From contig MHAR01000087.1 in assembly GCA_001803045.1 (NCBI GenBank), positions 1-38,557 of the forward strand: DNA of 38,557 nucleotides, given 5' to 3'. Both the position numbers and the translations under genes were made by a program. The notes under the pieces are model-generated. The model did not search any database. It was not told the DNA's origin and was given only the letters and a program-made list of their open reading frames with translations. Below are positions 22,613 through 35,439 of the stretch, piece after piece (position 1 is the stretch's first letter; the number at the start of each line of letters is the position of its first letter). The DNA is from Ignavibacteria bacterium RIFOXYB12_FULL_35_14 (GTDB lineage: Bacteria > Bacteroidota > Ignavibacteria > Ignavibacteriales > Ignavibacteriaceae).

Positions 22613-25117
22613 ATGAAACTTCAATCAAAAAAAGAATGTCTTCTCAAATTTTACTTTTTTCTTTTTATACTGATTTATCTATCCGATTTAAAAGCACAAA
22701 CCTTGATCCAAGTCTGGTCGGACGAATTTAACGGACCAACGATCGATCATTCCATTTGGGATTTTGAGATAGGCCCTACCAATGACAATGTCCACTACTA
22801 CACTGATCGACTGAATAATGCAAAAATAGTTGATGGTAAATTACAGATCATCGCTCTTAAAGAATCATATCAAGGTTTCAATTACACATCAGCTCTTTTA
22901 ATGACAAAAAACTCAATGAATTGGAAATACGGAAGAATTGAAGCTCGAATAAAATTGCCTGGTACGCCAGGATTTGTTCCTGCTTTCTGGCTGCTGCCAT
23001 CAGATGGCCGATACGGTTGGTGGCCGCAAAGTGGAGAAACTGATATTATGGAACACCCATCAAATGAAGTAACCTCAATTTACGGTACAGTTCATACACA
23101 AGCTTACAACTCTTTTACTGGATCAGGCCCGCGGGGCGATCTTATACATATCCCGGATGCCGAGACGCAATTTCATATTTATGCTGTTGAATGGACAAGT
23201 GAACAGATTGATTTTTATGTCGATAATCAAAAATATTTTACGTTTAATAACGATCACGGTGCATCAGATACTTGGCCGTTCAACCAGCCATTTTACATCA
23301 TCCTAAATTTAGCAGTTGGTGGTGGTTGGGTGGGTAATCCGACTTCAGCTTCTGTTTTCCCCGCAGTGATGGAAATCGATTATGTTAGAGTTTACCAAAA
23401 TTTAAACGACGCCGCAATTAATGGTGCTGACTTTACTACGTATAACAGCCAATCTATTCCGTACTCTGTCCCCAATATCAGCGGCGCAGGTTATTCGTGG
23501 AACGTTCCAGGAGACGCGCAAATTATTGCCGGAAGTAATACTAATAAAATTGATGTTGACTGGGGTATATTCGGCGGAGATGTGGTTGCAGAAATGACCG
23601 ATGGAAGTGGATACTATAAATATCAATACCCAGTTAAAGTATCGTATAATTATCTTAAAAATGCTGGGTTTGAAAAGGGAGTGAGGTACTGGAACAAAGC
23701 GATCGGGTATCCGGCTGCAGCAGATTTTAGCTTAACTCCAAACGATGTACATGAAGGAAGTTTTTCGTTGTATGTTGATGTAAAAACCGCTGGCAGCAAT
23801 CCTTGGGATGTTCAGTTGTCTCAAAGGAATTTAATGCTCAACGCTGGTAAACAATATCGTGCAAGTTTTTGGGCAAAATCTCCTGCTACAAATAGTACAC
23901 TTAATGCTGCAATCATTAACTCCACCAATTATACCCTGTATGCGAACAAGAGCATTATACTCACCAATACATGGACGCAATACGAATTGAATTTTGCTGC
24001 ACCCTCCAATGCTTCAGCTTCATTTAATATTGATATGGGTGGTCACACTGGAAACTTTTATTTTGATAATTTCGTTTTTACCACACCTGAATTAACCAAT
24101 TTAAACCAGATTGTAAATGCTGATTTCACAGATGGTAGTACTCCGTGGGTTTTTACAACATATTCACCAGCCCAAGCTAACGGGTCAGTGCAAAACGGAG
24201 AGTATGCCATTTCAATCAGTAATGGCGGGACCTATCCATGGGATATTAATTTAGGACAAATTGGCTTTTCTATTGAAATGGGAAAACAATATACTGTCTC
24301 ATTTGATGCCTATGCTGTTTCTCCCAGACAGATTTCGGCGCTCGTCGGTAAGAACTCTAGTCCATGGACGGTATATAGTGGAAGCCAAATATTTTCACTA
24401 ACAACTGCAAAGCAAACCTACCCCTATTCCTTTTTTATGAATGATCCTACTGATAACCAAGCAAGACTTGGATTTGATATTGGTACATCCCCGATTGATG
24501 TTTTTTTTGACAATGTTATGCTAAGTTTTGGAGTAACACCAACATTGACTGTAAGTCCATCAAATCAACCCGTAACATACGAAGCTGATAGTACAAAATT
24601 TACAATAACATCTAATACTAGCTGGAGCGTAGGTGATGATGCCACTTGGCTCACAGTCAGTCCAATCACAGGGAGCAATAATGACACTCTTAAAGTAACA
24701 TTTGAAGAAAACACAACGTCTAGCGAACGAGTAGGCACAATAACAATATCAGGAGGTGGAATAATTAGATCAGTTAAAGTAACTCAGGAAGTTCCTACTG
24801 ATATTAAAGATTTGAAATTTATTGACAATGTGCCAAACGCATATATGTTATTTGACAATTACCCCAATCCATTCAACCCATCAACTTCGATTAGATATGC
24901 AATACCAATCATTAGTACCGTTGAAATACATATCTATAATACTTTAGGACAAGAGCTAGAAGTATTTAATGCGGGCTTAAAGGAACCCGGATATTATAAC
25001 ATAACCTGGCAACCTAAGAATTTATCATCTGGAATATATTTTTACACTCTTGCAGCAAATAGTATAGATGGAAAGAATAATTTTTTAAAAACTCTGAAGA
25101 TGCAATTAATGAAATAA
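22613..25117 (+). CDS. Secreted GH16 beta-glucanase with CBMs, BACON-like domain and T9SS signal
   Basis: An 834-residue exported enzyme. The signal peptide spans about 1-28. The GH16 domain (about 33-262) has catalytic residues Glu142, Asp144 and Glu147 in SGETDIMEH, plus WSDEFNGP and the final MEIDYVRVYQ. GH16 members with this signature cut beta-1,3 or mixed-link glucans such as laminarin. A short Ig/PKD-like domain (265-343), two CBM4/9-like beta-sandwiches (about 347-492 and 498-640), a BACON-like domain (about 645-735) and a type A T9SS sorting domain (NYPNPFNPSTSIRYAIP onward) follow. GAGGG lies about six bases before the ATG. The regulator gene starts 46 bases after its stop and probably controls it. 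Confidence 0.93.
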   Translation: MKLQSKKECLLKFYFFLFILIYLSDLKAQTLIQVWSDEFNGPTIDHSIWDFEIGPTNDNVHYYTDRLNNAKIVDGKLQIIALKESYQGFNYTSALLMTKNSMNWKYGRIEARIKLPGTPGFVPAFWLLPSDGRYGWWPQSGETDIMEHPSNEVTSIYGTVHTQAYNSFTGSGPRGDLIHIPDAETQFHIYAVEWTSEQIDFYVDNQKYFTFNNDHGASDTWPFNQPFYIILNLAVGGGWVGNPTSASVFPAVMEIDYVRVYQNLNDAAINGADFTTYNSQSIPYSVPNISGAGYSWNVPGDAQIIAGSNTNKIDVDWGIFGGDVVAEMTDGSGYYKYQYPVKVSYNYLKNAGFEKGVRYWNKAIGYPAAADFSLTPNDVHEGSFSLYVDVKTAGSNPWDVQLSQRNLMLNAGKQYRASFWAKSPATNSTLNAAIINSTNYTLYANKSIILTNTWTQYELNFAAPSNASASFNIDMGGHTGNFYFDNFVFTTPELTNLNQIVNADFTDGSTPWVFTTYSPAQANGSVQNGEYAISISNGGTYPWDINLGQIGFSIEMGKQYTVSFDAYAVSPRQISALVGKNSSPWTVYSGSQIFSLTTAKQTYPYSFFMNDPTDNQARLGFDIGTSPIDVFFDNVMLSFGVTPTLTVSPSNQPVTYEADSTKFTITSNTSWSVGDDATWLTVSPITGSNNDTLKVTFEENTTSSERVGTITISGGGIIRSVKVTQEVPTDIKDLKFIDNVPNAYMLFDNYPNPFNPSTSIRYAIPIISTVEIHIYNTLGQELEVFNAGLKEPGYYNITWQPKNLSSGIYFYTLAANSIDGKNNFLKTLKMQLMK

Positions 25118-25163: not shown

Positions 25164-28100
25164 ATGAATTTTTATTGCAGAGTAAAACTAATTAATCTTT
25201 TTTTATCAATTGTGTTTTTTAGTTTGCAGCTAAATGCAAATGCACAATCAATTCTCTTTAATCATTTAAAAACAAACAATGGTTTATCAAACAATTATGT
25301 TTCGGATATAATTCAAGACAATACCGGATTTTTATGGTTTGCAACAGAAGATGGGTTAAACCGGTTTGATGGATATGAATTTAAAGTCTTTCGAAATATA
25401 CGGGATAACAGCAATTCAATCTCAGACAATACAGTTCTATGGTTTTCAAAAGATAAGAAAGGTAACCTATGGATAGGAACTAAAAATGGTAATATTAATT
25501 GTTACGATCCTTTGCTTGATAAGTTTAAAAAATGGGAAATTGAATCAGATATAACAAATGACAATCCGATTACTGAAATTCACATCGATAAAAACAATTT
25601 AGTTTGGATTGGAACATACAGAAGAGGAATTTATCGTTTAAATCCTGAATCTGGAAAAATTGATCATTGGGTCTTTAACTCGGATGATCCAAACTCAATA
25701 AGTAACAATTATATTTCCTCAATTGTTGAGGATGACCTTGGAAATTATTGGGTGGGAACTTTTAATGGATTAAATAAATTAAGACTCAATAATTCTCAAA
25801 TAGAAATTGAGAGATATTATTCTGATAAAAATAACCCAAACAGTGTTAGTGATAATTTAATCTGGGGAATTTCAGAATCGACAATCGATAAAAACACATT
25901 TTGGATTGGAACCACAAATGGATTAACTGTATTTAAAAGTGATTCGATAAAATTTAAAAGAATTGAAATCCCAAACCCTGATCAAATTCAATTTGGTAAC
26001 GGTGCGGGAATAGTTTTAGATGAAGTTATTAATGGGGAGCAGATTGTTTGGATAAATTCATTTGCCGGGTTACTTCGGTTTAATGTTTCTAAAAATCATT
26101 TTGAAAGATTTTTATCCAGCAGCAAAAATCCATCGGCTTTATCCAGTAATCAGATTAATAAAATATATAAAGATCGTTCAGGTGTATTGTGGGTGGCTAC
26201 AAATAAAGGGATAAGTTATTACTCGCAAAAGCAGGCAAAATTTAATAATTCATTTACAGATAATCATATCCAATTTGAATCAGATCAACTGGAAATATTT
26301 AGCGTAAACTCTATTGCGAAAACCTCTGATGGAAAACTTTACGTTGGAACTGATAAGGGGTTATATTATTCAGTCAATCAAAATGGTAAAACATTATTAA
26401 TAAAATACCCTAAGATTTCTTCGGTAAACATCTGGTCACTTGCTGTGGGTAAGAATAATGATCTCTGGATTGGAACATACGGATCTGGTTTATTCCGTCT
26501 GGATATAAAAAACAATAGTCTATCAGAACATAATTTTCTAAAAAACACTATACGATCATCTTCACAATATTTTGTTAAATCACTTTATGTTGATAACGAA
26601 AACAATCTTTTTGTAGGATATTGGGGGATAGGATTATCTAAGCTAAATCTTTCAACTTCAGAATTAAAATACTATAATCAAACCAAAGATAATCTATATT
26701 CAATTTCCCACGATGATGTCTGGGTAACTTATCAAGACAGAAGATCAAGAATTTGGATTGGAACTAATGGCGGCGGCTTAAATTATTTTGATAAACAAGC
26801 CGGTGGAAAATTCTATAGTTTAAATGAAGATTTAAAAAGTGAAAATGGATTAAGCAGCAACAGTATTTATTCAATTATAGAATCAAAAATTAAAAACACC
26901 AATAAAAGTGAAACAATTCTGTGGATCGGAACAAACAATGGGTTAAACAAAATTATTATTGATGATACAGAATACAATCCATCAACTTTTCCTAAAATCA
27001 AAAGTATTGATGTTTTCAAAACTGAAAATGGACTTGATAATAATTCTATAAAAAGCATAGTTGAAGATAATAATGGAAATTTGTGGCTCGGCACAAGTTC
27101 AGGAATAACCTTTTATGATATTAATAAAAACACATTTACTAACTATTCAAATTCAGATGGAATAATTGGAGTTGATTTTAATTTTTCATCTGCCCTGTTA
27201 TATGATGATAATCTTATTCTAATGGGCAGCACCTCGGGATTAAATTTATTCGATCCTTCGGCAATCAGTCAATCAGAATTCAAACCAACAGTTGCCATTA
27301 CAGATTTTCAGATATTTAATAAGTCTGTTAAGGTTGATCCAAATTCTGTTTTATTACAAAATATTATCTACACAAATAAGATAACCCTTTCTCATACGCA
27401 GAATGTTTTTTCATTTCAGTTTTCTTCATTCGATTATAACAGCCCTAGCTCTATTAACTATGCTTATAAGATGGAAGGATTTGATAAAGATTGGATACAA
27501 AGCGGAACACGCCGTTTTATAACTTACACAAATTTAAATCCCGGCGAATATACTTTTAAAGTTAAATCAACTAACAGCGATGGAGTTTGGAATAGTAATG
27601 AAATATCTCTTGCCGTTACTATAGCCCCGCCCTGGTGGCAAACCGGCTGGGCAATTCTTTTGTACTTTGTTGTCTTTGTTCTTGGTGTTTGGGCGATTAT
27701 AAAATTTCAGAATTATAGAACAAGATTGCAGCACGAATTAAAATTTCGGGAACTTGAATCTTATCATCTGCGGGAAATTGAACAGATGAAATCAAGATTT
27801 TTTGCAAATCTTTCACACGAGTTTCGCACTCCGTTAATGCTTATTAAAGGACCACTGGAAGCTCTGCTAAATGGAAAAATAAAAGAGAATGTTTCTAGTT
27901 ATTATAAAATGCTTTTACGCAACACAGAAAAACTGCAGCAGCTTATTGATCAGCTTTTAGAATTATCTCAGCTTGAATCTGAGTCTATCCCATTAAGAAC
28001 GGAGGTATATGATTTAGTCAGTGTTGTTAAATCCTTGTCAGATAATTTTAAATCTTTAGCAGATGAAAATAATATCAAGTATAGTTTTAACACTTCTATC

Positions 28101-29345
28101 CAATCTGTACAAGCAAATATAGATAGAGATAAGTTGGAAAAGATTATCAACAATTTGCTCAGCAATGCTTTTAAATTTACGCCGGTTGATGGAAATATTT
28201 CTGTTGATATATTAATTGAAAATAAATATGAACCCGTGATTGCAAATATTTCTGTTAAAGATTCTGGAATTGGAATTCTTAAAGAATACCAATCAAAAAT
28301 ATTTGATAGATTTTATCAGGCAGATAATTTATCTAAAACAAACTATGGCGGATCTGGAATTGGATTGGCACTTGTTAAAGAATTAGTAACACTGCATAAG
28401 TGGGATATAGGGGTTAAAAGCAACCCGGGATTGGGAACGGAATTTATTTTAAGCATTCCTTTGATAGCTGATAAAGAATTGACAGAAGTAAATCAACAGC
28501 AGAATAATAATGATATCGCCGAAAGAACTTCAGAGAATAGATTGATCAAAGATGAATCTATAGAACCTAACACTTCTGAAAATCAAAACGATAAACCATT
28601 AGTTCTTTTTGTAGAAGACTCAGAAGATGTTAGAAAATATGTTTATGATTTATTAAAATCAGATTATAATGTTTTGATCGCAGAATCCGGTGAGGCTGGA
28701 ATTGATGTTACGCAAAACAACTTGCCGGATTTAATTTTAAGTGACGTTATGATGCCGGGAATGGATGGGTTTGAGTTTTGTAAAAAAATAAAATCAGATT
28801 GGAGAACAAGCCACATACCCGTTATACTTCTTACTGCAAAAGTAACTCATCAAAGTAAATTAGATGGGCTTGAGCTTGGCGCCGATGATTATATTACAAA
28901 GCCGTTTGATTACAATGAGCTTTTGATACGCATAAAAAATCTTATTGATCAGAGAAAAAAATTAAGAGAAAAATTTAGTAAAGAGATCAGCCTTCAAGCG
29001 GAAACAATTTCTGGAAATTCTTCTGATACAGAATTAATCCAAAAAACTATTGATATAATTGAGAAAAATCTTAATAACGAAAACTTTAACAGCGATACTC
29101 TTGCCAATGAACTTTTTGTAAGCCGCAGCCAGTTGAACAGAAAACTACAAGCGGTTGTATCACAGGGTCCCGGTGAGTTTATAAGAAATTATAAGCTTAA
29201 ACGCGCTGCACAAATGATTTTAGAAAAAAGATTTAGCATCACACAAATTGCTTTAGAAGTTGGTTTCGGAAGTCCCGCACAATTTACCCGTGCATTTCAA
29301 AAACACTATAACTGTTTACCATCTGAGTTTAAGCAAAACAAATAA
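25164..29345 (+). CDS. Hybrid two-component system, 14-blade propeller sensor with AraC-type HTH
   Basis: A 1393-residue one-protein phosphorelay. After a signal peptide (about 1-28) come fourteen Reg_prop blades, each ending in a (L/I)WIGTxxGLxxF-like strand, enough for two seven-bladed propellers. Then a Y_Y_Y domain (about 715-815), a membrane helix (about 827-847), HisKA with His885 (NLSHEFRTP), an ATPase domain with GSGIGLAL, a receiver with Asp1194 (SDVMMPGMDG) and a C-terminal AraC helix-turn-helix pair (about 1290-1393). HTCS proteins sense glycan breakdown products in the periplasm and activate matching degradation genes. The GH16 gene just upstream points to a beta-glucan signal. 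No SusC/SusD pair is present in the window. A candidate binding site lies downstream at 29442-29479. Confidence 0.95.
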   Translation: MNFYCRVKLINLFLSIVFFSLQLNANAQSILFNHLKTNNGLSNNYVSDIIQDNTGFLWFATEDGLNRFDGYEFKVFRNIRDNSNSISDNTVLWFSKDKKGNLWIGTKNGNINCYDPLLDKFKKWEIESDITNDNPITEIHIDKNNLVWIGTYRRGIYRLNPESGKIDHWVFNSDDPNSISNNYISSIVEDDLGNYWVGTFNGLNKLRLNNSQIEIERYYSDKNNPNSVSDNLIWGISESTIDKNTFWIGTTNGLTVFKSDSIKFKRIEIPNPDQIQFGNGAGIVLDEVINGEQIVWINSFAGLLRFNVSKNHFERFLSSSKNPSALSSNQINKIYKDRSGVLWVATNKGISYYSQKQAKFNNSFTDNHIQFESDQLEIFSVNSIAKTSDGKLYVGTDKGLYYSVNQNGKTLLIKYPKISSVNIWSLAVGKNNDLWIGTYGSGLFRLDIKNNSLSEHNFLKNTIRSSSQYFVKSLYVDNENNLFVGYWGIGLSKLNLSTSELKYYNQTKDNLYSISHDDVWVTYQDRRSRIWIGTNGGGLNYFDKQAGGKFYSLNEDLKSENGLSSNSIYSIIESKIKNTNKSETILWIGTNNGLNKIIIDDTEYNPSTFPKIKSIDVFKTENGLDNNSIKSIVEDNNGNLWLGTSSGITFYDINKNTFTNYSNSDGIIGVDFNFSSALLYDDNLILMGSTSGLNLFDPSAISQSEFKPTVAITDFQIFNKSVKVDPNSVLLQNIIYTNKITLSHTQNVFSFQFSSFDYNSPSSINYAYKMEGFDKDWIQSGTRRFITYTNLNPGEYTFKVKSTNSDGVWNSNEISLAVTIAPPWWQTGWAILLYFVVFVLGVWAIIKFQNYRTRLQHELKFRELESYHLREIEQMKSRFFANLSHEFRTPLMLIKGPLEALLNGKIKENVSSYYKMLLRNTEKLQQLIDQLLELSQLESESIPLRTEVYDLVSVVKSLSDNFKSLADENNIKYSFNTSIQSVQANIDRDKLEKIINNLLSNAFKFTPVDGNISVDILIENKYEPVIANISVKDSGIGILKEYQSKIFDRFYQADNLSKTNYGGSGIGLALVKELVTLHKWDIGVKSNPGLGTEFILSIPLIADKELTEVNQQQNNNDIAERTSENRLIKDESIEPNTSENQNDKPLVLFVEDSEDVRKYVYDLLKSDYNVLIAESGEAGIDVTQNNLPDLILSDVMMPGMDGFEFCKKIKSDWRTSHIPVILLTAKVTHQSKLDGLELGADDYITKPFDYNELLIRIKNLIDQRKKLREKFSKEISLQAETISGNSSDTELIQKTIDIIEKNLNNENFNSDTLANELFVSRSQLNRKLQAVVSQGPGEFIRNYKLKRAAQMILEKRFSITQIALEVGFGSPAQFTRAFQKHYNCLPSEFKQNK

Positions 29346-29353
29346 AACCATAG

Positions 29354-29382
29354 CACAGCCTTATCCGCCGCGGCGGACTGTG
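29354..29382. terminator. GC-rich hairpin after the HTCS gene
   Basis: CACAG (29354-29358) pairs with CTGTG (29378-29382), enclosing the perfect 14-base palindrome TCCGCCGCGGCGGA (29364-29377). It starts nine bases after the HTCS stop. The T tract is absent, so it may be a REP-type repeat with termination or mRNA-stabilising effect. Confidence 0.45.
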
Positions 29383-29441
29383 TTACGTTGCTGCTTTAAT
29401 AATCTTAACATTTAACACTACGCCACTAATATTTCTGCTTT

Positions 29442-29508
29442 TTGAATCAAAACAGCAAAACATTGAATCAAAAAAGCAATTTACCGCGCTAATAAAAACA
29501 TACTTTTG
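29442..29508 (+). promoter_or_regulatory. AraC-type direct repeats in front of a TAnnTTTG promoter word
   Basis: TTGAATCAAAACAGCAA (29442-29458) is repeated with one change at 29463-29479. The 17-bp half-sites lie 4 bp apart, a 21-bp period equal to two helical turns, which is the geometry of the E. coli AraC I1-I2 site. TACTTTTG (29501-29508) follows and matches TAnnTTTG; its -33 partner is poor, as expected for an activated promoter. The adjacent HTCS ends in an AraC HTH. Confidence 0.5.
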
Positions 29509-29744: not shown

Positions 29745-29921
29745 TTATGATAAACAGTGTTTTAAATTATAGCATAAGCGGATTTAAGCAGAACTTTTTC
29801 AAAATACATACACGATTTTGCTGATTGCTTTGCTTTTATCGCTTCAAGGTAAATGATGATTTTCAATCGATGGCCTTTTCTAATCACTAAAATTAATTAC
29901 CTAAACTTAAGGAGCATTAAA

Positions 29922-31499
29922 ATGATAAAAAACAATTTCATTTTTACTGTTTTATCTTTTCTTTTCCTAACCCAATTAACTTGGGCTCAGGTTCCGGCAA
30001 CTATCAGCTATCAAGGTGTATTAGCTGATTCAGAAGGGAATATATTATCTGATGGCAATTACGATCTTTATTTTAATTTGTATGACTCATTTTTCAATGG
30101 GAATATACTTTGGTCGGAGAGCCAGACTATAAACCTGCGTAATGGAATTTTTAATGTAATCTTAGGCGAGTTTGTTCCCATAACCTTACCTTTTGATAAA
30201 CAATATTGGTTAGGAGTTTCAATAGGTACTGACCCAGAATTAACCCCAAGAATCCAATTAACAGCATCGCCTTATAGCATGATTTCTCAAAGAGTAGCAG
30301 GTGGTACAAATGTTTTCCCAAACGAAGGAAATGTTGGTATTGGAATAAAAACCCCAGCTGAAAAGCTAGAAGTGGCAGGAACAATTAGATCAACAACCGG
30401 CGGGTTTATGTTCCCGGATGGAACGACTCAAACAACTGCTGCAACCGGAACTGCGAGCGGCAATACACTCGATCAAGCGTACGACCAGGGAGGACCAGGT
30501 GCGGGTAGAATTATTAATGCTAATGCTGGGCCGGTGAATATTGCCGGAACTGATGGATTAACAGTAACCGGTAAGGTCGGAATTGGTACTAATGCGCCAA
30601 GTGATAACCTTGAGATTTCTGAGAATAAAGATGGATTTGTTGGTATGACAATTTCTAACACCAATACAAGTAGTAATTCTTCAGAAGGTATTTACTTTAA
30701 TAACGAAGATGGCTCATTAGCGGGTATAACGCTTTATGACGATAATAGTGTATATCCATCGCAAATGCACATTGGTAATAATCGCCCATTAGGTTCAATT
30801 CATTTTAGTACACAAGGGGAGAAAAAAATAACTTTGGCTAATAATGGTAATTTGGGAATTGGAACGACTGACCCTCAACAAAAACTTCATGTAAATGGAC
30901 TGGCTCGTTTTGATTTACCTACCGGACAAATCAACATTAGTACACCGGGAGGAAATCCCGGGATTATTTCTTTTGTACCTAATGGAAATAGGAGAGATTT
31001 AGTTTTTGATAATTATGGAATAAAGTTAGTCGCAAGTACATCTTCCTTAGCACCTTCAAATGGAATTCGAATAGAAGAAAATGGTTATGTAGGAATAAAT
31101 ATGGGTGAATTTCCCTCAAATAATATCTTAACAATACAGCAGAACTCACCGACCGACCCAATTGCCGATGATTGGACCACTTATAGTTCAAAAAGATGGA
31201 AAACAAATATAGAACCTATAATCAATGCGATGGACATGATTAAACGACTTCGAGGTGTTACATATGATCGGAAAGAAACTGGTAAACACGACATCGGTCT
31301 TATTGGCGAAGAGGTGGGAGAAGTAATTCCGGAAATAGTGACATACGAAGAAAACGGAATTGACGCAAAGTCGATTGACTATGCACGAATTGTTGCGGTT
31401 CTTATTGAAGGAATGAAAGAACAACAAGAGAAAATTAATCTGCAGCAAAACACAATGATTGAATTACAAGATAGAATTACTAAACTTGAAAATAAATAA
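29922..31499 (+). CDS. Secreted surface protein with S74 intramolecular-chaperone domain
   Basis: A 525-residue exported protein. The start is the ATG at 29922, preceded by AAGGAG, giving the signal peptide MIKNNFIFTVLSFLFLTQLTWA; an in-frame ATG 69 bases upstream would bury that signal. After VPATISYQGVLADSEG comes a beta-rich head. Tail-fibre-like repeats each centred on (V/L)GIGTxxPxxKLxVxG follow. The C-terminus is a peptidase S74 (endosialidase-type chaperone) domain, with SSKRWKTNI, HDIGLIGEEVGEVIPE, IDYARIVAVLIEG and a final coiled coil. S74 domains trimerise fibres and cleave themselves off. Bacterial versions occur on cell-surface adhesin-like proteins, and no phage gene is nearby. 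It has no T9SS signal of its own, but the next gene carries one. Confidence 0.88.
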   Translation: MIKNNFIFTVLSFLFLTQLTWAQVPATISYQGVLADSEGNILSDGNYDLYFNLYDSFFNGNILWSESQTINLRNGIFNVILGEFVPITLPFDKQYWLGVSIGTDPELTPRIQLTASPYSMISQRVAGGTNVFPNEGNVGIGIKTPAEKLEVAGTIRSTTGGFMFPDGTTQTTAATGTASGNTLDQAYDQGGPGAGRIINANAGPVNIAGTDGLTVTGKVGIGTNAPSDNLEISENKDGFVGMTISNTNTSSNSSEGIYFNNEDGSLAGITLYDDNSVYPSQMHIGNNRPLGSIHFSTQGEKKITLANNGNLGIGTTDPQQKLHVNGLARFDLPTGQINISTPGGNPGIISFVPNGNRRDLVFDNYGIKLVASTSSLAPSNGIRIEENGYVGINMGEFPSNNILTIQQNSPTDPIADDWTTYSSKRWKTNIEPIINAMDMIKRLRGVTYDRKETGKHDIGLIGEEVGEVIPEIVTYEENGIDAKSIDYARIVAVLIEGMKEQQEKINLQQNTMIELQDRITKLENK

Positions 31500-31532: not shown

Positions 31533-32066
31533 ATGTTATACTCAAAAGTGATTTTTTTGTTTTTAGGGACTGTTATTGGTTTGCATTCTACGGTTTTAGC
31601 ACAGGCAAAAATGCAAAACAGTGTATTAAGTAATGGGTGCAAAAACATGTACGGTAGTAGCAACCGGATTTATAGTACTCTTGGTCAGCCCTTCGTTGGT
31701 AAATCAAATAATTCTAATACTTTTAGTTACCTGGGATTTTGGTACCAAGCAGATATGCTTGGCATTACAGATGTCGAGCAATTAACTTTTGATATATTAC
31801 CGAAAGAATACTCGCTTAAGCAAAACTATCCAAATCCATTTAACCCTGCCACAAAAGTAAAATTTGCTGTGCCGGAAAAAAGTAATGTGTTAATAAAAGT
31901 TTATGATATTCTTGGAAGCGAAGTGGTTACACTTGTTAATGAAGAAATGGATGCAGGATGGTACGATGTTAATTTTAATGCTGCCGGATATTCTTCGGGT
32001 GTTTACCTGTTAAGAATGGAAGCCGGAAGCTATGTAAACACAAAGAAGATGATCTTAATGAAATAG
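31533..32066 (+). CDS. Small T9SS cargo protein
   Basis: A 177-residue secreted protein with a signal peptide (about 1-24), a short N-terminal domain, and a complete type A sorting domain from NYPNPFNPATKVKFAVP to KKMILMK. The N-terminal domain contains the pattern SNGCKNMYGSSNRIYSTLGQPFVGKSNN ending in YLGFWYQ when read with gaps of a few residues. TLGQ..(V/I)G and GFWY are familiar from short proteins encoded next to S74 surface proteins in this bacterial group, which suggests it helps display or anchor the product of the preceding gene. AAGGAGAG lies eight bases before the ATG. The 33-base gap to the S74 gene indicates one operon. Partnership is inference. Confidence 0.85.
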   Translation: MLYSKVIFLFLGTVIGLHSTVLAQAKMQNSVLSNGCKNMYGSSNRIYSTLGQPFVGKSNNSNTFSYLGFWYQADMLGITDVEQLTFDILPKEYSLKQNYPNPFNPATKVKFAVPEKSNVLIKVYDILGSEVVTLVNEEMDAGWYDVNFNAAGYSSGVYLLRMEAGSYVNTKKMILMK

Positions 32067-32165: not shown

Positions 32166-33608
32166 ATGAAAACGAATCAACGCACATTTATTTTGATTCC
32201 GTTTATTGCAATTTTTTCGCTGACCGGGTATTCGCAACCGTGGACCAAAACCTATGGCACGCTTTATAATGATGAAGCTTATTGTGTGCAGCAAACCTTT
32301 GACGGAGGTTACATCATTACCGGAAACACCTCTCCACATAATCCATGGGATTCTGATCTCTATCTGATTAAAACGGACAAACACGGTGATACCCTATGGG
32401 CAAAAACCTATGGTGGAGCAGGCAATGAGACAGGTGTTGATGTAAAGCAAACAACAGATAATGCTTATATCATTTGCGGGTATAACGCCACAATAGAAGC
32501 AGGAAACTTTGATGTTTGGTTATTGAAAATAAACAGCAGTGGGGACACTTTGTGGGCAAAAAAATTTGGAGGGAATAACAATGATTTCGGAAACTCAGTA
32601 TTTCAAACTGATGATGGCGGCTATGTAATTATTGGTTCTACAGAATCGTATGGAGCTTTTGATTCCAATTTAATGATGATAAAAACAAATGCCTCAGGTG
32701 ATTCGTTGTGGTCAAAGGTACATATTATTTCTTATCACCAGATTGTTTCTGAAGCACAGCCGACATCGGACGGGGGTTATATAGTAGCCGGGTACACACA
32801 ACTAAAAGGTTTTTTCAATGCTGATGTCTGGCTGGTTAAACTATATAGCAATGGTGAAATTGAATGGACAAAAACTTTTGGCAGTGACCTTGACGACATT
32901 GCTTATTCGGTTCAGGAAACTGCTGATGCAGGGTATATAATTACTGGTTCACGATACGGGGATCTGTGGTTGATTAAAACGGATATGTACGGCGATACGC
33001 TCTGGACAAAAACCTTTGGTGGAACTTCCAATGATGCTGGTCATTCTGTCATTGAAACAGATGAAGGCGATTTCCTGGTGTGTGGATATACATTTTCTTT
33101 TTCGGCAAGTGGCGATGTGGACCTCTGGCTGATCAAAACAGATATTAGCGGATACACCTTATGGACAAAGATGTACGGTGGCAGCGGTGCTGAAATTGGT
33201 TTTTCCGTGATTGAAACTTTTGATGGTGGACTGACGGTTTGCGGCTTTACTTCATCGTATGGTGCCGGTGATAAAGATGTCTGGCTGCTTCATACGGATC
33301 TAAACGGTACGGTGGGAATAGAAGATAAAATCTCCGGGACAGCAAACGCCTATATTTTGGAACAGAATTATCCTAATCCATTTAATCCGACAACAACAAT
33401 TCAATTTTCAGTACCAAAGCAATCATTTGTAACTCTTAGAATCTACGATATTCTCGGAAAAAATATAATGAAACTTGTTGATGATGAACTTCAACCAGGT
33501 GAATATAAAATTAATTTTGATGCTGATAATTTATCAAGTGGAATTTATTTCTATCAACTTAATAGCTCAGAATTTGTGTCAGTTCGTAAGATGATGTTAA
33601 TAAGATAA
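32166..33608 (+). CDS. T9SS cargo protein with seven-fold W-K-T-x-GG repeats
   Basis: A 480-residue exported protein. After a signal peptide (about 1-24) there are seven repeats of about 50 residues, each with (L/E)W(T/A/S)K-(T/K/M)(Y/F)GG, then DxGxSVxxTxDGGY(I/L)(I/V)xGxT, DxWL(I/V)KT(D/N)xxGDT. Seven copies suggest a seven-bladed beta-propeller. A type A sorting domain follows (NYPNPFNPTTTIQFSVP to VRKMMLIR), so the protein is delivered to the cell surface or medium. No catalytic residues are visible; binding or structural roles are likely. AGGAG lies about six bases before the ATG. Confidence 0.9.
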   Translation: MKTNQRTFILIPFIAIFSLTGYSQPWTKTYGTLYNDEAYCVQQTFDGGYIITGNTSPHNPWDSDLYLIKTDKHGDTLWAKTYGGAGNETGVDVKQTTDNAYIICGYNATIEAGNFDVWLLKINSSGDTLWAKKFGGNNNDFGNSVFQTDDGGYVIIGSTESYGAFDSNLMMIKTNASGDSLWSKVHIISYHQIVSEAQPTSDGGYIVAGYTQLKGFFNADVWLVKLYSNGEIEWTKTFGSDLDDIAYSVQETADAGYIITGSRYGDLWLIKTDMYGDTLWTKTFGGTSNDAGHSVIETDEGDFLVCGYTFSFSASGDVDLWLIKTDISGYTLWTKMYGGSGAEIGFSVIETFDGGLTVCGFTSSYGAGDKDVWLLHTDLNGTVGIEDKISGTANAYILEQNYPNPFNPTTTIQFSVPKQSFVTLRIYDILGKNIMKLVDDELQPGEYKINFDADNLSSGIYFYQLNSSEFVSVRKMMLIR

Positions 33609-34017: not shown

Positions 34018-35439
34018 ATGACTTTCATTAAACTAAATATTATCACTATTTGGGGGGTGTTGCTAATTGTTCCAAATCTATTTTCACAGACACAACAATT
34101 TGAAAAATTTCTTATAAAAAGCAATAAAATATTTTTGCATGATTTTAAGAATAAAATTCATGATGAATTCATTAATAATGAATTGCATAATAAATTAACT
34201 ACTATAACTATTCAAAATCTAAATTCTGGGGATACTATTGTTGTTGATCATATGATGGGGACTCATGCTAACGGTAATAAATCAATACATACCTACACCT
34301 ATAATCAGAATGTGAAAAGAACTTCATATTTATATGAAACTTGGGATGGCAGTCAATTGGTCCCTTTCTGGCTCTGTACATACACATATGATTTAATGGG
34401 AAATAGGTCTATTGAATTACAAAAACGTTGGGAGGGTAATCAGTGGGTGAATTCTTTGCTAAAAACCTTCATATATGATTCGAACGGAAATATGATTTCG
34501 GAATTATATGAAACTTGGGATGGCAGTCAATGGATAAGTGCAGAATTATATAATTATACATATAATTTTAATGGAATAATGACTTCACAGTTTTCTCAAA
34601 CTTGGGATGGCTCCCAGTGGGTGAATAAACGCAGAGAAACTTACACTTTTGATTTCAACGGAGATAGAATTTTAGAGTTCGTGGAAATTTGGGAAAGTAA
34701 CCAGTGGGTGAATTATTGGCGAGCTACCACTTCATATGATTCAAACGGAAATAGGAGTTCGATTTTGAGTGAAACTTGGGATGGTAACCAATGGATAATT
34801 TTTAATCGTAGCACATTCGCTTATGATTCCAATGGAAATTTAACTTCTGGGTTAAATGAAACTTTTGATGGCATTCAATGGGCTAATTCCACTCTATATA
34901 CTTATACTTATGATCCCAATGATAATTTAACCTCGGAACTATTGGCAGTTTGGTATAATTACTGGATGCAGCAATCCCGTAAAACTTATGTCTATAATTC
35001 CGACGGAAAAATGGTTTTGGGGTACTCCGAAAGAAATTTATCAGGAAACTGGGAAGCAAGTGATGGCTGGTTTGAAGTTCATGATTCTTTCGGAAACATT
35101 AGTAGTGCAATTGCATCAATTATAACCATATTCTATTCCAAGTTAACCGATATTTCGGATAATGAAAAGGTTATCTCAGATTATTCATTAGCTCAGAACT
35201 ATCCAAATCCTTTTAATCCGAGCACAACAATTAAATACGAAATTCCAGAAAATTCATCCGTTATTCTAAAAGTCTATGATGTTTTAGGGACAGAGGTAAT
35301 AACATTAGTGAATCAAAAACAACCAGTTGGTAATTATGAAGTAACTTTTAATGCTAACGAATTACCAAGTGGAGTTTACTTATATCGGTTGCATACTGAA
35401 TTATTTTCATTAACAAAAAAGATGCTTTATTTAAAATAA
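34018..35439 (+). CDS. T9SS cargo protein with TWDGSQW repeats
   Basis: A 473-residue exported protein. After a signal peptide (about 1-24) and a short leader, eight or nine repeats of about 30 residues follow. Each contains (E/Q)TWDG(S/N)QW(V/I), a few variable residues, then Y(T/N)Y(D/N)xNGN(M/L/R). The alternation of aromatic strands with NGN turns recalls RHS/YD-type repeats, though it is not a canonical RHS core. A type A sorting domain ends the protein (NYPNPFNPSTTIKYEIP to TKKMLYLK). Function is unknown; the DNA repeats are close enough to recombine. GGAG five bases before the ATG supports the start. Confidence 0.88.
   Translation: MTFIKLNIITIWGVLLIVPNLFSQTQQFEKFLIKSNKIFLHDFKNKIHDEFINNELHNKLTTITIQNLNSGDTIVVDHMMGTHANGNKSIHTYTYNQNVKRTSYLYETWDGSQLVPFWLCTYTYDLMGNRSIELQKRWEGNQWVNSLLKTFIYDSNGNMISELYETWDGSQWISAELYNYTYNFNGIMTSQFSQTWDGSQWVNKRRETYTFDFNGDRILEFVEIWESNQWVNYWRATTSYDSNGNRSSILSETWDGNQWIIFNRSTFAYDSNGNLTSGLNETFDGIQWANSTLYTYTYDPNDNLTSELLAVWYNYWMQQSRKTYVYNSDGKMVLGYSERNLSGNWEASDGWFEVHDSFGNISSAIASIITIFYSKLTDISDNEKVISDYSLAQNYPNPFNPSTTIKYEIPENSSVILKVYDVLGTEVITLVNQKQPVGNYEVTFNANELPSGVYLYRLHTELFSLTKKMLYLK

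Follow-up and report, generated by a model that had tools for sequence, protein, structure and literature searches.

Results

A probable tandem operator and promoter lie behind the HTCS gene

Positions 29442 to 29508 of the window (the whole 38,557-nucleotide stretch of DNA that was analysed) very probably form the operator and core promoter by which the adjacent hybrid two-component regulator (HTCS) activates the operon downstream, judging from sequence comparisons. Two half-sites with 16 of 17 bases identical form a direct repeat with a 4-bp spacer (AACA) and a period of 21 bp, and a further 21 bases separate the end of the proximal half-site from the -7 element. Since 21 bp corresponds to two helical turns, both half-sites would lie on one face of the DNA. 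The preliminary description of this DNA had claimed two 17-bp direct repeats 4 bp apart, a TAnnTTTG word with a weak -33 element 21 bases past them, and an adjacent HTCS with an AraC-type HTH, all of which were confirmed. It had also proposed that the HTCS acts through this site on the genes downstream and so links glucan sensing to surface display; a conserved tandem operator and promoter between the HTCS gene and the small ORF, S74 and T9SS genes upholds the first part of that proposal but not the link to glucan. The features of the region are listed below.

22613-25117, + strand: GH16 / CBM4_9 / BACON protein with a T9SS tail (Pfam); ends 46 bp before the HTCS gene
25164-29345, + strand: HTCS with Reg_prop propellers, Y_Y_Y, HisKA, HATPase_c, receiver and AraC-type HTH (Pfam); proposed binder of the site
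29346-29389, + strand: hairpin directly 3' of the HTCS stop codon, fold -17.0 kcal/mol, G+C-rich, palindrome TCCGCCGCGGCGGA
29442-29458, + strand: distal half-site TTGAATCAAAACAGCAA (read from the sequence, pattern scans, alignment of loci)
29463-29479, + strand: proximal half-site TTGAATCAAAAAAGCAA, abutting the -33 region (sequence, scans, alignment of loci)
29480-29483, + strand: weak -33-like element TTTA (alignment; consensus from the available portion of PMC7366714)
29501-29508, + strand: -7 element TACTTTTG, fitting TAnnTTTG (sequence, alignment; consensus from the same portion of PMC7366714)
29586-29744, + strand: small protein of 52 aa with one hydrophobic span, first gene behind the site (translation, homologue searches)
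29747-29856, + strand: second small hydrophobic ORF with a broken frame; stop codon at 29822-29824, matching tail in another frame at 29803-29856 (by eye)
29922-31499, + strand: Peptidase_S74 protein (Pfam); the ORF reaches 29853, likely start ATG at 29922 after AGGAG
31533-32066, + strand: T9SS-tail protein, probable operon member (profile matches)
32166-33608, + strand: T9SS-tail protein with repeats, probable operon member (weak Arylsulfotrans and SBBP matches)
34018-35439, + strand: T9SS-tail protein with RHS/YD-like repeats; a homologue (32-33% identity) lies behind the site in the relatives G043 and G044

The Bacteroides promoter consensus has TAnnTTTG at -7 and TTTG near -33, and a -33 motif was not found in Flavobacterium, according to the portion of PMC7366714 at hand. 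The window's TTTA aligns with TTTG in four relatives (G044, G040, G042a and G045a). The hairpin that precedes the site may be the end of the HTCS transcript; at its place in 11 other loci the folds were -18.2 (G042a), -12.9 (G048b), -9.4 (G044 and G048a) and otherwise -7.1 to 0 kcal/mol.

Exact matches to TTGAATCAAAANAGCAA in the window's own genome (4.10 Mb, 95 contigs) were confined to these two half-sites. With up to 2 mismatches there were 21 matches, against 24 for the reversed control; a lone half-site therefore carries no meaning, and the pair does. The pair scan returned one site in this genome, so a wider regulon there is not supported.

The module is conserved behind HTCS homologues

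A search with the HTCS protein gave a match at 1e-50 in 63 of 80 genomes of the family. Twenty loci were compared, the window and 19 fetched regions, with HTCS identities of 43-100%; one further locus (L057, G045:C88) was left out, as its match lacked the C-terminus. The module 17-4-17-21-TAnnTTTG, or a near form of it, was present downstream of the HTCS stop codon in all 20 loci, at +27 to +164. Loss of the repeats in relatives that keep the HTCS had been named in advance as the observation that would count against the site, and the repeats proved to be conserved. When 9 periods and 13 gaps were combined, the geometry with period 21 and gap 21 ranked first of the 117 in 19 of 20 loci; in the exception, G062a, which has a poor -7 word (TACATTAT), period 23 with gap 19 scored one point higher.

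The loci scored 22-31 and 200 shuffled regions reached at most 19, with a scoring consensus derived from the same 20 loci and single-base shuffles. Across the 614,764 positions of these loci, 22 sites scored at least 22, of which 20 lie behind the HTCS and 2 before other genes of the same loci; the next-best score, 21, occurred once. One locus (L056, from G050) has another operator of this type 3561 bp past the HTCS stop codon and before its second gene, which suggests two adjoining HTCS-controlled units.

Because the consensus came from the loci that it scored, two checks less closely tied to it were used: column information and the self-similarity of paralogous loci. Information per column in 12 aligned loci was 1.43 and 1.28 in the half-sites, values favoured by an alignment anchored on them, 1.21 in the spacer and 1.50 in TAnnTTTG; the spacer, and the TAnnTTTG word in 11 of the 12 loci, played no part in the anchoring. 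By contrast the left flank had 0.60, the gap 0.64 and the part downstream 0.47.

For the second check, regions behind 44 further HTCS paralogues were scanned without a consensus at periods of 12-40 (29 periods); 40 of them had been chosen by hand from the HTCS matches, five (L082, L192, L193, L212 and L229) are members of the second motif group, and for L205 and L207 the stop codon used was later than the true one. Period 21 was the best in 10.3 of the 44, the next period in 4.0, and the mean self-similarity was 10.59 at period 21 and 8.75-9.66 at the others. Most single loci peak away from period 21, some of them more strongly (e.g., 17/17 at period 26 in G003:C1).

These results bear on whether the repeats could be a product of chance, a recent duplication or some other intergenic element without a regulatory role. 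There are two copies only, in an A+T-rich region, and single half-sites occur at background level; yet sequence, spacing and position recur in all 20 loci while the flanks vary, at scores that the shuffled regions do not reach, and we regard this reading as scarcely credible. The site shows two properties of HTCS operators: it is a direct repeat at about 21-bp distance, and it is conserved before the presumed target genes where the regulator is kept.

The pattern follows close HTCS homologues across the family

A strict pattern of the pair (26 fixed bases, up to 3 mismatches) gave 5 matches in the 80 genomes and none for the reversed control, and all five sit 58-97 bp past the stop codon of an HTCS homologue. 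With a looser pattern (24 fixed bases, up to 3 mismatches) there were 17 matches in 11 genomes and one for the reversed control; ten lie directly behind HTCS homologues and seven elsewhere. Six of these seven contexts were inspected by eye, and five (all except G034) have TAnnTTT 21 bp past the second half-site; G036:C95:4726, the seventh, conforms as well, with TAACTTTG. The pattern was present in 10 of 11 genomes with a close HTCS versus 1 of 69 others, where a close HTCS is a listed match with an identity of 50% or more across 550 residues or more, a rule set afterwards. A pattern for the second motif group had 17 matches in 12 of the 80 genomes, none in the window's own genome and none for the reversed control. 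The only other listed genome of the genus (G079) has neither the HTCS nor the site and is uninformative.

Half-site words and the recognition helix

The second recognition helix reads SP[ASG]QF in 13 of the 20 loci and SPSHF in 7. AGCAA ends at least one half-site in all 13 QF loci (both half-sites in 6) and in none of the 7 SPSHF loci, which carry CGCTA in the first half-site (7/7) and CGACA in the second (6/7; ACAACA in G050). Among the 40 further HTCSs, four have SPSHF; three of these (L192, L193 and L212) face CGCTA and L208 faces CGCCT instead. Nine others have DQ[AS]YF, and seven of them (L194, L195, L196, L197, L214, L222 and L231) share a third motif in the 17-4-17-21-TAnnTTTG geometry, its first half ending in TCCTA or TCCAA and its second in TACAA or TGCAA; none was seen in L213 and L216. 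These groups of helices and words were read by eye after the data were in hand, and at each locus a site of either consensus type was accepted by the scan. Similarity of the HTH correlated with that of the site at 0.66 (0 of 2000 permutations as high), with that of the flank at 0.59, and similarity of the receiver (REC) with that of the site at 0.56; the partial HTH-site correlation given REC was 0.48. The words change with the recognition helix of the HTCS, in part through shared ancestry, with which this covariation is largely confounded.

The site might be real and be bound by another AraC-type regulator, or by a paralogous HTCS encoded elsewhere. At 1e-50 the window's genome gives three further matches to the HTCS, and in relatives the same geometry is seen at operators located in stretches with no HTCS match (L079-L081). 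Against this, the site adjoins the HTCS gene in 20 of 20 loci and is almost confined to genomes with a close HTCS, the half-site words track the helix of the neighbouring HTCS, and the own-genome paralogue on C13 faces a different repeat, so that a binder other than the adjacent HTCS is improbable. The C13 repeat is the clearest of the 44 at period 21 (17/17) and the only clear one at that period among the three own-genome paralogues; C45 has none and C11 has one of 16/17 at period 32.

Two other HTCS genes of the window's genome (L075:8200-8800 and L076:4238-4800) are followed by short ORFs that, by eye, amount to hardly more than a T9SS sorting tail, and the short tail ORF on C13 is preceded by the perfect repeat of 21-bp period. 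In L079-L081 (from G040, G043 and G044; L079:7515-7870 and the corresponding place in the other two) the HTCS-type operator leads into a leader rich in hairpins, after which come a 42-aa ORF of another kind, with LK[KR]KE and one hydrophobic span, and genes for proteins with signal-like N-termini. This operator is likely a target in trans. An Rfam search of the leader gave only tRNAs at the gathering threshold.

The HTCS and the gene upstream of it

All domains of the HTCS class occur together in the 25164-29345 polypeptide, every one above its Pfam cut-off, and the receiver contains a SHIP motif (TSHIPVILLTAK, read from the translation). The S/CHIP motif is found in most HTCS receivers, not all, and marks the interface through which the receiver holds the DNA-binding domain in check before phosphorylation, as stated in the available part of PMC11253607. 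Among the matches listed, which comprise close relatives only, the best named relative of the C-terminal part is from an Ignavibacteriae MAG (48% identity).

The GH16 gene is perhaps co-transcribed with the HTCS gene; the T9SS tail of its product fell under the Pfam cut-off in one search and over it in another. No operator scoring at least 21 was found upstream of either gene in the window. None scoring at least 22 was found upstream of the HTCS in the 19 other loci, with a single 21 on the reverse strand in G039, where the upstream span available was at least 4.2 kb in 15 loci and 0-1.4 kb in four (G042a, G042b, G045a and G046). Autoregulation, or control of the GH16 gene, through the same kind of site was rejected, as there is no upstream operator at threshold.

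In the 19 other HTCS loci the best match to the GH16 catalytic part had E 0.58; this search was done with the catalytic part alone, an earlier one having kept one best match per locus. Upstream neighbours vary, with nine proteins in eight homologous loci (PagL-like, FG-GAP, beta-helix, YCF48-like, GH20, cytochrome-like and other T9SS-tail proteins). A glucan signal is therefore unsupported: the catalytic part was not found in the other loci over the spans available, and the GH16 gene has no operator in front of it in the window. A sugar of some kind may still be the signal, since one of the eight loci (G048a) has a glycan enzyme, GH20, upstream.

A small membrane protein and surface proteins follow the site

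In 11 of 12 aligned loci, all but G036, the first gene to follow the site is the small ORF. Differences among 10 sequences at the three codon positions of a 30-codon block were 0.334, 0.127 and 0.581, and dN was lower than dS in 13 of 15 pairs, that is, in all with a computable dS; by these measures the ORF is conserved as a protein. The search of the 80 genomes gave 27 matches, 15 of them with E up to 1e-4, and all 15 have the operator module upstream. Thirteen lie right behind an HTCS; in G036 the copy is another 1.1 kb downstream and has a separate site, and that in G038:C252 has a site on a 5.1-kb contig with no listed HTCS match. The 12 weaker matches (E above 1e-4), which were excluded, comprise one with a site (G038:C146) and 11 without. 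In 395 genomes of the phylum the protein was found in three, all from the same family as the window's genome.

The window's copy fell below every Pfam cut-off and had no NCBIfam match, and a named family for it was accordingly rejected; the best Pfam E-value among nine members was 0.00043, to TMEM132_C. The second small ORF is uninterrupted in G040, G043, G044 and G045a (35-37 aa), and its broken frame in the window may be either a sequencing error or decay.

S74 genes come downstream in the window and in G040, G042a, G045a and G048a, and at a much greater distance in G062a; in G043 and G044 the homologue of the 34018-35439 protein takes the place of S74. Of the seven SPSHF loci, six open with a gene whose product of 1108-1109 aa has a signal-like start (truncated at the contig end in G042b), and G035 is the exception. 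A phage origin of the region was rejected, as 261 bases had no match in 50,697 phage records.

The window's genome encodes SprA, and at E 0.001 the T9SS tail was matched 147 times in it, with four matches under the cut-off. Three SusD models (PF07980, PF14322 and PF12771) gave no match in it at E 0.001, with the control Bacteroides ihuae positive each time, and by these models the regulated locus has no susD-like gene of the kind that defines a SusC/SusD PUL.

Discussion

The arrangement of the site suggests how activation would proceed. The periplasmic propeller sensor would detect a ligand and the receiver would become phosphorylated, which would free the AraC-type HTH from the receiver. Two HTH domains would then bind the half-sites in tandem, and the proximal one would contact RNA polymerase at the weak -33 element in class II activation. 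The resulting operon would begin with the small membrane protein and continue with the S74 and T9SS-sorted surface proteins.

AraC-type proteins are capable of both activation and repression, and the site could in principle serve repression, or repression along with activation. A class II activator usually sits where the proximal half-site does, abutting the -33 region, which argues for activation. So does the suppression of HTCS DNA binding until phosphorylation (PMC11253607, available part). We consider a repressing role very improbable and activation by the adjacent HTCS the better reading.

The small membrane protein could be a dedicated feedback partner of the HTCS, produced from HTCS-type promoters alone, inserting by the sensor's transmembrane helix and tuning the sensor as MgrB does PhoQ. 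By analogy this is possible rather than probable. Equally open is a variant in which the protein may help to export or anchor the surface proteins whose genes follow its own. Were the feedback role true, a small-protein modulator would be built into the HTCS circuits of this bacterial family, and these circuits would govern T9SS surface display without SusD. Among the papers listed in searches of the open literature there was no earlier report of a small-protein modulator of HTCS circuits and no paper on HTCS control in Ignavibacteria.

The site offers a testable operator rule for HTCSs beyond gut Bacteroides, a fixed geometry combined with half-site words that follow the helix, so that the targets of many uncharacterised sensors could be predictable from sequence. 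It also suggests that HTCSs control surface proteins in a genome with 147 T9SS-tail matches and without a match to the three SusD models, and ties an unnamed family of small membrane proteins to HTCS-type promoters.

Comparison with known systems

At araBAD, the AraC I1-I2 site consists of tandem 17-bp half-sites 4 bp apart, with the proximal half adjoining the -35/-33 region. The window's site is likewise a 17-4-17 tandem with its proximal half at the -33 region. It differs in its proposed regulator, a hybrid sensor kinase rather than a sugar-binding AraC, and in its promoter, which is of the Bacteroidota TAnnTTTG type.

MgrB, a membrane protein of 47 aa, inhibits the sensor kinase PhoQ and is part of the PhoQ regulon (PMC8404706, available part). 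The window's small membrane protein resembles it in having lysines near the N-terminus and in being presumably under the control of the sensor on which it may act. Unlike MgrB, the small ORF stands at the head of a surface-protein operon, and the likeness is one of size and place only.

The closest parallel is with the HTCS operators of B. thetaiotaomicron. Motifs inferred for 16 Bacteroides HTCSs are direct repeats spaced 21 bp on average, and the HTCS_Man group has 16-bp sites with a 5-bp spacer (Ravcheev et al. 2013, PMC3878776, portion available); since tandem sites of period 21 are inferred there, the type of site is already known. The window's site shares with them the tandem direct repeat of about 21 bp and the AraC-type HTH of an HTCS. 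The B. thetaiotaomicron regulons, in the same portion of that source, are polysaccharide loci, several with SusC/SusD, whereas the window's genome has no match to the three SusD models. Unlike those operators as described there, the site closely follows the HTCS gene and keeps a fixed distance of 21 bp to TAnnTTTG, and its presumed targets are the genes for a small membrane protein and for S74/T9SS-tail proteins. The operator type is known; what sets this case apart is that it occurs in this family, stands at a fixed distance from the promoter, precedes presumed T9SS-tail targets in a genome without SusD matches, and comes with a small membrane protein.
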